A stretch of DNA of 64,000 nt from Oscillospiraceae bacterium (GTDB lineage: Bacteria > Bacillota > Clostridia > Oscillospirales > Acutalibacteraceae). The notes under the pieces are model-generated. The model was not told the DNA's origin. It saw only the letters and a list, made by a program, of their open reading frames with translations, and made no database searches. This document shows, in pieces, positions 30,064 to 31,926 of the stretch. The position numbers and the translations under genes were made by a program. Where the stretch lies: positions 1-64,000 of the forward strand of contig CADBBH010000009.1 in NCBI GenBank assembly GCA_902792905.1, in the 5' to 3' direction. How positions within the stretch are numbered: position 1 is the stretch's first letter; each line of letters opens with the position of its first letter.

Positions 30064-31926
30064 ATGAAAAAGACGAAGAAACTGCTTGCCGTTATACTCT
30101 CCGCCGCGCTGATTATCGGCTTATTCACGCTGACAGCGAGCGCGATGCAGATTTTTGTGAAAACTCTGACCGGAAAGACCGTCACTTTAGAGGTCGAGCC
30201 CGGAGATTCGGTTGACAATGTCAAGGCAAAGATTCAGGATAAAGAGGGCATCCCGCCCGATCAGCAGCGCCTGATTTTTGCGGGCAAGGAGCTTGAAGAC
30301 GGCCATACCCTCGCGGATTACAATATCCAGAAGGAGAGCACTCTTCACCTGGTGCCGAGAGTCAAAGAATACAAACAGGGCGATATTATCGAATACGGCT
30401 CATATCCGCAGAGTGAGGTTAAGGACGAGGAAACTCTTGCCGCGCTCAGCGCGCTTGTCACAGACGATATGTGGATAAGCTATGGCTACTACGGCAGCGA
30501 TACGGGTGAACAGGACGACGGCGCAATGCACCCGACAGACTGCATGAAATATGCCGATGTCACATACGGCAACGAAAAATACAGGGCGGTAAAAATAGAT
30601 AATCCGAAGCCGGCATACACCTATCTCAAGGTTGAATATAATTCAAATCAGTATAACAACGGTTACAGAGCGCCGGGTATTTACTGGTTCAAGTATGAGA
30701 GCCTGAAGTGGAGAGTGCTCGACCCGTCAACGGGGCTTGTTATGTGCGACGGTATCATAGACTGCCGCCCGTTCAACAGCTTCAATCTTAAGGACGGTTA
30801 CGATGAAATAGGTGACCCCATGATCTGGGGTAACCCCGAAAAGACCTATGCCACCAATGACTATGAGCACAGCGAAATCAGGGCTTGGCTCAGCGACGGG
30901 TTTATGAATACCGCTTTCTCACAGGATGAGCAGGAGAATATAGATATATCCGTTCTCTCAAATAAACACCTTTATGATCTCTCCGGCAGGGCAAACAGCA
31001 CAAATCACTTCAGCGTTTATAATCAGCCGGATACGGAAAATAAAGTATTCCTGCTTTCCTGGGATGAGATAACCGATCCTGATCTCGGCTTCAGTGTGAA
31101 TACCACAGGCGACGCGCCCGACAGAATGCTCGCAGGCAGCGACTACGCGAAGGCCCAGGGCATCTATACTTATAAAATCGGCAATCAGGAGAGTGAATAT
31201 GACGGTAACTCTTCGTGGATGCTGAGAACGCCGACAAGCTACAGAAACGGCATATGCTTTGTCGGTGTAAACGGATATGCGGAAAACTCCGGTTATGATC
31301 CGAACTGCGATGAATCTCTATACGGAATCTGCCCGGCTATGAGGCTCGGCAAGGCAGTAATCCCGCGAGAGGATGCTCCGGTTGAAAAGAAATACACAGT
31401 AAGATTTATATTTGACGGCAATGTCATTTCCACGGCAAAATATAAAGAGGGCGAAACGATAGAAATACCCGAAGCTCCCTGGAATTACCCATATTATTTC
31501 GTCGGGTGGAATCCCGCGGTTCCGGCGGTAATGCCCGCCGAGGATCTTGCTTTCAACGCGGTATTCAGCACCAAACCTCCGGAAAACCCCGACAGCTCCG
31601 GCTTCAGTCTTCCGGCATTTGCCGAAAAGAGCGCGCCGTATAAGACCATTGTAACGGTCAGCGTGACTCTCAGCGTGCCCGAAGGCGCGTCGGTTTATAT
31701 TGACGGCAGGGAAGCGACCGTGAACGGCAATAAATATTCGGCCGATATCGGTCAGGCCGCCTCATCGAGAAACATAAGCATAGAGGTAAAGCAGGGCGGA
31801 AGCACAATTGCTTCATCCTCGCTCACGCTGAATGTCAAAACCGATTTCTTCAGTAAACTCGGCTCGTTCTTCGGCAATTTTCTCTTTAATCTTTTCAAAT
31901 GGAAATCGGTAAACATAGACTATTGA
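30064..31926 (+). CDS. Secreted ubiquitin-DUF6273 fusion protein
   Basis: The 620-residue product starts at the ATG at 30064 (GGAGG nine bases upstream; an ATG at 30049 overlaps that site). Residues 1-27 are a signal peptide ending in ASA. Residue 28 is Met1 of a domain that matches human ubiquitin at 63 of its first 72 positions, by direct comparison. All seven lysines and the Leu8/Ile44/His68/Val70 patch are kept, but the terminal Arg-Gly-Gly is absent. A DUF6273-like region follows (about 105-435: DIIEYGSYPQ, LKWRVLDP, EIRAWLSDGF, WMLRTP). After it come an InlB-type B-repeat-like segment (YTVRFIFDG...FVGWNP), a small beta domain and an aromatic C-terminal helix. Probably secreted; the role of the ubiquitin is unknown. 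Confidence 0.93.
   Translation: MKKTKKLLAVILSAALIIGLFTLTASAMQIFVKTLTGKTVTLEVEPGDSVDNVKAKIQDKEGIPPDQQRLIFAGKELEDGHTLADYNIQKESTLHLVPRVKEYKQGDIIEYGSYPQSEVKDEETLAALSALVTDDMWISYGYYGSDTGEQDDGAMHPTDCMKYADVTYGNEKYRAVKIDNPKPAYTYLKVEYNSNQYNNGYRAPGIYWFKYESLKWRVLDPSTGLVMCDGIIDCRPFNSFNLKDGYDEIGDPMIWGNPEKTYATNDYEHSEIRAWLSDGFMNTAFSQDEQENIDISVLSNKHLYDLSGRANSTNHFSVYNQPDTENKVFLLSWDEITDPDLGFSVNTTGDAPDRMLAGSDYAKAQGIYTYKIGNQESEYDGNSSWMLRTPTSYRNGICFVGVNGYAENSGYDPNCDESLYGICPAMRLGKAVIPREDAPVEKKYTVRFIFDGNVISTAKYKEGETIEIPEAPWNYPYYFVGWNPAVPAVMPAEDLAFNAVFSTKPPENPDSSGFSLPAFAEKSAPYKTIVTVSVTLSVPEGASVYIDGREATVNGNKYSADIGQAASSRNISIEVKQGGSTIASSSLTLNVKTDFFSKLGSFFGNFLFNLFKWKSVNIDY
30145..30366 (+). other. Ubiquitin-like domain coding segment
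   Basis: This codes for residues 28-101 of the fusion. Differences from human ubiquitin within the first 72 positions: I13V, S20G, T22S, I23V, E24D, Q49E, R54H, S57A, L71P. The tail then reads Val-Lys-Glu-Tyr instead of Leu-Arg-Gly-Gly. D24 and A57 are, from memory, found in plant ubiquitin. Codons look like those of neighbouring genes, with no intron trace. Confidence 0.95.

Follow-up and report, generated by a model that had tools for sequence, protein, structure and literature searches.

The window, the whole 64,000-nucleotide stretch of DNA analysed here, contains a gene whose product carries a eukaryotic-type ubiquitin between a predicted bacterial signal peptide and a large C-terminal body, and this ubiquitin has lost its conjugation tail. 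The same architecture recurs in other bacteria, where the tail has been lost repeatedly, one and the same body occurs with or without the ubiquitin cap, and many lineages, though not all, strongly conserve the face of the ubiquitin. Our tentative reading, to which we give slightly less than even weight, is that a non-conjugatable ubiquitin would be presented outside the cell and would bind ubiquitin-recognising proteins of protists, fungi or a host.

In the Pfam search, the window protein scored 101.9 bits with the ubiquitin profile PF00240 (cut-off 25.4, E 1.6e-29), and its residues 28-101 match PDB ubiquitins; as read from the sequence, the layout of signal peptide plus ubiquitin is confirmed far beyond chance. 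The domain is identical to human ubiquitin at 63/76 positions (83%), with all identities located within the first 72 residues and residues 73-76 differing. This alignment bears out the original prediction of 63 human residues out of 72 with the seven lysines and the Ile44 patch retained, namely K6, K11, K27, K29, K33, K48 and K63, and L8, I44, H68 and V70. The tail reads P71-R72-V73-K74-E75-Y76 and the LRLRGG motif is absent, so that the Gly75-Gly76 needed for conjugation is gone. ThiS/MoaD-type bacterial proteins have a beta-grasp fold like ubiquitin, carry no export signal and require a C-terminal Gly-Gly; we know of no close sequence match to ubiquitin among them or among other bacterial ubiquitin-like proteins. 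The domain had been taken for a eukaryote-type ubiquitin rather than a ThiS/MoaD fold and, indeed, Pfam gives ubiquitin, and the 11 families it lists for the window protein with E values up to 1 do not include ThiS/MoaD. The E2 family PF00179 was matched in 0/45 genus genomes, but also in 0 control genomes, so this search carries no weight; two ThiF-type proteins are present in the window genome, and this family was matched in 12/14 control genomes. The gene has the following organization, in window coordinates.

30064..31926, + strand: whole gene, 620 amino acids, an open reading frame with signal peptide, ubiquitin, DUF6273 body, C-terminal beta domains and helix
30051..30055, + strand: Shine-Dalgarno-like GGAGG, 8 bases upstream of the ATG at 30064, read in the sequence
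30064..30144, + strand: signal peptide of 27 amino acids, predicted cut after Ala27 (ASA) from the sequence and the -3/-1 rule; similar in ubiquitin-less relatives
30145..30363, + strand: ubiquitin domain, equivalent to human residues 1-73, conjugation tail 74-76 replaced (PF00240, identity to human, model topology)
30361..31368, + strand: C-type-lectin-like body with DUF6273 (profile match 30844-31341)
31393..31512, + strand: weak Listeria-Bacteroides (InlB B-type) repeat (PF09479, 22.7 bits, below the cut-off of 27; Internalin B, E 0.09)
31627..31836, + strand: unnamed C-terminal beta domain, with strands in the model and sub-threshold Pfam matches only
31846..31884, + strand: C-terminal hydrophobic/amphipathic helix (model helix 595-607); similar ends in secreted proteins of the genus

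After the predicted cut, the mature protein would comprise 593 residues and is, therefore, not a standalone ubiquitin of 76. A first structure model included the signal peptide, which came with a distorted strand 1 of the ubiquitin; a second model, of the mature protein, shows a good ubiquitin with beta-grasp topology and a poor body (mean pLDDT 66). Both a DUF6273 profile match and a C-type-lectin-like fold were found for the body. VIA-align, applied to the C-terminal domains of the window protein, listed no other folds and gave no evidence for a new one. By analogy, the C-terminal helix may possibly serve in surface attachment. Hydrophobic/amphipathic ends are also present in genus secreted proteins at 59826-60650 (-) and 52333-53400 (+), as well as in L013, L014 and L020, and these shared ends possibly constitute a surface attachment signal.

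The signal peptide had been described as ending in ASA with Met1 of ubiquitin next to it; this is what the sequence reads (TASA, Met1 being residue 28, at 30145), and the proposed cleavage that would expose Met1 agrees with the -3/-1 rule, the only rule by which cleavage sites were predicted. A similar junction is observed in all 20/20 loci chosen by HMM above cut-off, in which position -3 is Ala or Val, position -1 is Ala and position +1 is Met (18 unique domains, some of them near copies). In wider scans, a signal-like core was present in 77/108 rows, and in 76/77 of these the positions -3 and -1 immediately ahead of the domain hold small residues, defined by loose letter sets, the sole exception being L085, while a strict Ala-x-Ala junction is found in 46/77. 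Nine duplicates (L011, L012, L013, L014, L015, L017, L021, L035 and L037) were removed before this count, and near copies such as L002/L007 and L020/L102 were left among the 108 rows. The 31/108 rows outside the secreted count include L033, L050, L066 and L082, with clear signal peptides that are sub-threshold, the truncated L090, 10 rows that lack a signal peptide and belong to an aquatic Actinobacteria class, and a further 16 rows, among them weak matches and also free or polyubiquitin-like rows, the latter possibly eukaryotic contamination (e.g. L052). In L023, L043, L060, L075, L076 and L077, from bins resembling aquatic Actinobacteria, a ubiquitin without signal peptide is fused to a conserved domain that starts with TGV(V/I)(T/S)YQ and, where complete, ends with FTG; four loci have two adjoining genes. 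Among autotransporters chosen by their barrel, the junction fits 9/11 proteins of clade 1, with an additional Ser before Met1 in P0123 and P0125, and at most 1/5 of clade 2 (P0134, with the loose set; P0138 has no upstream sequence). The non-fitting proteins of this set have one more residue, mostly Ser, ahead of Met1, and the predicted exact Met1 junction is thus not universal.

Comparison of related bodies indicates that the ubiquitin is a movable cap, the same body also occurring without it. P0141-P0144 are 57-76% identical to the window body and possess a similar signal peptide and a short linker, but no ubiquitin; in the alignment, ubiquitin forms a block between signal peptide and body that is missing in these four proteins. 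The search that found them, with window residues 104-620, gave 361 matches, and the best 120 of the 361 include two with PF00240 (P0023 and P0149). The whole-protein search was dominated by polyubiquitins; its list of 120 contained one useful relative, P0023, and the rest were used as a eukaryotic sample. P0149 combines a strongly diverged ubiquitin with two DUF6273 domains, and its end, judged by eye, resembles the body of L001, the sister gene described below; this arrangement suggests module shuffling among ubiquitin-capped proteins. An ABC transporter gene, situated upstream of the window gene, is present in 36/45 genus genomes. The window gene lies 3' of it in the window genome (G000) and in G028, and inspection of five other relatives did not find it in that position; no clean empty site was seen, the slot after the transporter differing in these five relatives (in G010, only about 1 kb of it is on the contig).

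The bodies differ also in the way they might be anchored. Recognised C-terminal surface or secretion domains of five kinds scored above cut-off in 15/27 related proteins scanned, which had been hand-picked out of about 80, partly for informative C-terminal ends.

Autotransporter beta-domain, above cut-off: L018, L022, L030, L036, L044, L081
IPTL-CTERM, above cut-off: L032, L039, L086, L095
T9SS tail, above cut-off: L019, L042
SLH, above cut-off: L061, L074
Dockerin, above cut-off: L016

LPXTG-like ends were sub-cut-off, e.g. 15.3 bits against 15.9 for L088.

The secreted bacterial ubiquitin proposed in the original prediction is real but not isolated, being one member of a wide architecture across bacteria. 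The window genome itself has a second signal-peptide-ubiquitin gene, L001 (G000:C10:47241-47456 -), on another contig, with a signal peptide ending in ASA, a ubiquitin with intact LRLRGG and then a 240-residue body; judging by this arrangement, its product would in principle be open to deubiquitinase cutting. With the own genome counted, PF00240 carriers amount to 7/60 relatives, 8/45 genus genomes, 5/394 genomes in the order sample and 5/391 above cut-off in the class sample, where two further sub-cut-off matches are not ubiquitin-like in appearance. A pattern scan of 84,980 species genomes with the motifs MQIFVKT[LR] and D[NA]VKAK[IV]Q gave 369 stretches, 281 of them confirmed, and the best 80 of the 281 were kept; viral contigs gave 10 pattern matches. 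No ubiquitin match was found in 50,697 phage records, and one strong and two weak matches in 72,556 plasmid records. Since metagenome bin names are unreliable and some records look misnamed, isolates were relied on and given more weight. Isolates of Pseudomonadota, Actinomycetota and Bacillota carry such genes, and the strain-named carriers include Ruminococcus albus 7, Rhodoferax lacus, Dyella sp. OK004, Dyella acidiphila, Paracidovorax valerianellae DSM 16619, Conexibacter sp., Methylolobus aquaticus and Rhodobacter amnigenus, the Ruminococcus albus 7 gene being a plasmid gene annotated 'ubiquitin family protein'. The carriers include free-living aquatic and soil bacteria that, from their habitats, we take to have no known host, a point against the display reading. 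The window bacterium likely comes from a ruminant gut, its relatives including rumen, omasum and RUG bins.

Several arrangements were observed alongside this survey. On the R. albus 7 plasmid pRUMAL01, typed mobilizable, the ubiquitin gene (L103) belongs to a mostly hypothetical run ending with a dockerin gene, and a transposase-type gene is located a few genes away. L034 (5905-6228) and L092 (4811-5134) encode a standalone signal peptide plus ubiquitin of about 108 residues, with LRLRGG as the exact end, and a standalone ubiquitin of Dyella sp. OK004 equals the human one at 75/76 residues. L071 (5366-6480) has two adjoining signal-peptide-ubiquitin genes, of 188 and 184 residues, and this pair is also found in G446. 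In the Pseudoalteromonas plasmids NZ_CP077771.1 (864532-864708) and CP076682.1 (832935-833108), a ubiquitin-like stretch of 43-48% identity is situated inside Ig-like / tandem-95 repeat proteins.

Acquisition from a eukaryote, as first proposed, is supported by the eukaryotic type of the domain, but the nearest sequences found are bacterial and, therefore, the immediate source may be a bacterium. Indeed, the window domain is identical to that of L009, the nearest found, at 69/72 residues and to eukaryotic domains at 65/72 at most (267 repeats sampled from 119 proteins, with rumen protists and fungi not deliberately sampled). His54 is common to 15/76 bacterial domains, some of them in bins that carry the labels Bacillota, Fibrobacterota, Lentisphaerota or Verrucomicrobiota and, in several cases, come from ruminant samples by title; it also occurs in 28/267 eukaryotic repeats, and the four of these that were inspected are degenerate. 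The tree of 109 domains and 72 columns, which took 35 of 80 thinned eukaryotic repeats and left out BfUbb, the ubiquitin of Bacteroides fragilis, has 80/106 inner branches open. In this tree, a branch with SH-aLRT 92 parts eukaryotic from genus rows, and many other bacterial domains are placed among eukaryotes. From these sequences, we infer one or more transfers from eukaryotes to bacteria, presumably followed by spread among bacteria.

The ubiquitin part is conserved in an uneven manner. Of the 18 unique domains chosen by HMM, 15 retain L8, 17 I44, 17 H68, 13 V70 and 13 the whole patch; each lysine is kept in 15 to 18 and all seven in 12, with G75 in 10, G76 in 5 and LRLRGG in 4. The 74 pattern-chosen domains (L033, L050, L066 and L082 restored, L102 removed) have LRLRGG in 9 and the whole Ile44 patch in 56, with entropy climbing steadily from residue 73 to residue 76; this set, derived from the best 80 of 281, is biased to high identity, its conservation coming partly from the scan patterns. 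In 56 pairs homologous beyond ubiquitin, the ubiquitin differs at about 1-14% of nonsynonymous sites and identity between the fused parts is 24-64%, two close pairs apart; since pS is at or beyond saturation in many of these pairs, and above 1 in some, no dN/dS ratio is given for them. For genus copies of ubiquitin the median dN/dS is 0.047 (55 pairs, with 4 saturated ones excluded). G000 and G028 differ in the ubiquitin domain by 3 synonymous and no nonsynonymous changes, and in residues 100-530 by 18.5 and 19.5, respectively. Low dN/dS values may in part be a legacy of the domain's past in eukaryotic donors. In some genus pairs the synonymous distances of cap and body disagree (0.26 for the cap against 0.64 for the body in L013-L014, 0.59 against 0.41 in L014-L021), so caps may be exchanged between genes.

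As a control for selection bias, a search was made in which the query was limited to the linker and barrel of L030, and it yielded 20 proteins. Ubiquitin is present in 17/18 close proteins and in neither of two distant barrels; the one close protein without ubiquitin, P0127 (285 residues), is probably a fragment. In clade 1 (11 autotransporters, with barrels 100 to 54% identical to P0121), the ubiquitin retains 59-71/72 human residues, the Ile44 patch in 11/11 (one with L8I) and the seven lysines in 10/11. In clade 2 (6 autotransporters, barrels at 41-46%), it retains 36-52/72 human residues and 10-14/14 core residues, and the Ile44 patch is lost in 6/6. To judge from these sequences, the barrel-chosen set offers at once the strongest argument for a surface-binding role and the strongest argument that such a role is not universal.

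These data bear directly on the strongest rival, in which ubiquitin would be kept as a small, stable, protease-resistant module sealing the mature N-terminus or tip, its surface having no partner. Ubiquitin is a very stable protein, it caps very different bodies in very different source organisms, its start at or beside Met1 leaves hardly any loose end, the body also occurs without it, and the diverged versions retain most of the core while losing the Ile44 patch. Against this stands clade 1, which keeps the exposed residues down to a barrel identity of 54%. Since the fold of clade 2 survives without the patch, the fold does not force conservation of the surface and something else does so in clade 1. 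We regard a purely structural cap as unlikely, though worth serious consideration. On the other hand, the loss of the patch in clade 2 speaks against a universal mimicry role and, together with the diverged copy of P0149, indicates that there the domain needs no eukaryotic partner.

A displayed, binding ubiquitin is favoured by the recurrent junction, by loss of the tail with retention of the fold, by the modularity of the cap and the variety of its carriers, by its constraint in bacteria and by clade 1. It might operate as follows. The signal peptide would direct export, and signal peptidase would cut after Ala27 and uncover Met1 of ubiquitin at a presumed surface position. Lacking Gly-Gly, the displayed ubiquitin would not be conjugatable. 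The body, lectin-like here and a beta-barrel, S-layer or sorting-signal part elsewhere, would place or target the cap, which could contact its partners non-covalently through the Ile44/Phe4 face. In the patch-keeping group, to which the window protein belongs, these partners would most likely be eukaryotic ubiquitin-binding proteins. Of the activities originally suggested, competing for conjugation is unlikely for the window copy, given its lack of Gly-Gly and its fused body, whereas binding or mimicry is plausible from the sequence. More broadly, and a shade more cautiously, it is possible that bacteria across phyla pass round tail-less ubiquitin as an N-terminal display cap engaging ubiquitin receptors of grazing protists, gut fungi and animal hosts.

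Next comes an antibacterial role, in which secreted ubiquitin would act on competing bacteria in the manner of BfUbb. A 2024 report in Nature Microbiology is said to name a peptidyl-prolyl isomerase as the target of BfUbb. According to PMC5705921, BfUbb has the same signal peptide-Met1 layout and no terminal glycine, and its synthetic 76-residue form inhibits other B. fragilis strains. However, BfUbb is a free protein of 76 residues, whereas the window ubiquitin is fused to a body of about 520, and the window domain is only 62% identical to BfUbb (66 aligned residues) against 84% to linear di-ubiquitin 3b08 (63). We judge this role improbable.

Still less probable, to the point of being doubtful altogether, is a suicide substrate or release mechanism, in which, within a eukaryotic cell, E1 would handle the domain or a deubiquitinase would cut it and free the body. 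The sister gene L001, with LRLRGG preceding its body, and the standalone genes ending in LRLRGG (L034, L092) would suit such a mechanism, and PMC3352274 describes BfUbb as binding human E1 covalently and blocking ubiquitination in vitro; the window copy, however, has no Gly-Gly and thus cannot be cut or activated there. Recent chance capture or a functionless binning artefact is highly improbable: the distribution is patchy (8/45, 5/394 and 5/391 in the genus, order and class samples, own genome included), but the gene has bacterial neighbours, a bacterial signal peptide and a similar GC3, one genome has two such genes, the G000-G028 domain shows 0 nonsynonymous against 3 synonymous changes where residues 100-530 show 19.5 against 18.5, and isolates are carriers, which excludes an artefact.

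The repeated architecture in many bacteria contrasts with a literature centred on B. fragilis, which a 2017 paper counts among a few ubiquitin-bearing bacteria. The literature search, with most subscription journals outside its reach, found no paper on ubiquitin-capped surface proteins; PMC10892293 is a review of extracellular ubiquitin, and passages of PMC4378268 describe Babela massiliensis with secreted deubiquitinases and do not mention a ubiquitin gene. If the display-cap reading is true, a bacterial cell wears ubiquitin on surface proteins of many anchoring types. Named isolates such as Ruminococcus albus 7, Dyella sp. OK004, Rhodoferax lacus and Paracidovorax valerianellae DSM 16619 are among the carriers, so a clean test is possible, which would address what unconjugated ubiquitin is capable of beyond the eukaryotic cell and whether bacteria use it toward protists or hosts.

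Among known systems, eukaryotic ubiquitin (PF00240) and its ribosomal and polyubiquitin fusions share with the window domain the sequence, the fold, the Ile44 patch, the seven lysines and the N-terminal place in a fusion; unlike them, the window copy has a signal peptide, no junction Gly-Gly and a bacterial body. No ubiquitin is reported for the N-terminal domain of the Thomasclavelia ramosa IgA peptidase (PDB 9qa6; PMC12237041), and no peptidase domain was found in the window protein. The secreted ubiquitin of Globodera rostochiensis likewise consists of signal peptide, ubiquitin and C-terminal extension, but, as described in PMC5705921, this organism is a eukaryotic parasite, a nematode, and the extension has only 12 residues. 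The nearest studied case is BfUbb of Bacteroides fragilis (PMC3352274, PMC5705921; PDB 8hm2), which is similarly bacterial, with a signal peptide cut at the Met1 position and Gly-Gly lost; its published mature form starts at the same alignment position as the junction described here (PMC5705921). BfUbb is, however, a standalone protein of 76 residues, 63% identical to human ubiquitin, whereas the window ubiquitin is 83% identical (63/76), is fused to a large lectin-like body and, unlike BfUbb, is accompanied by a second paralogue and by relatives across several phyla.
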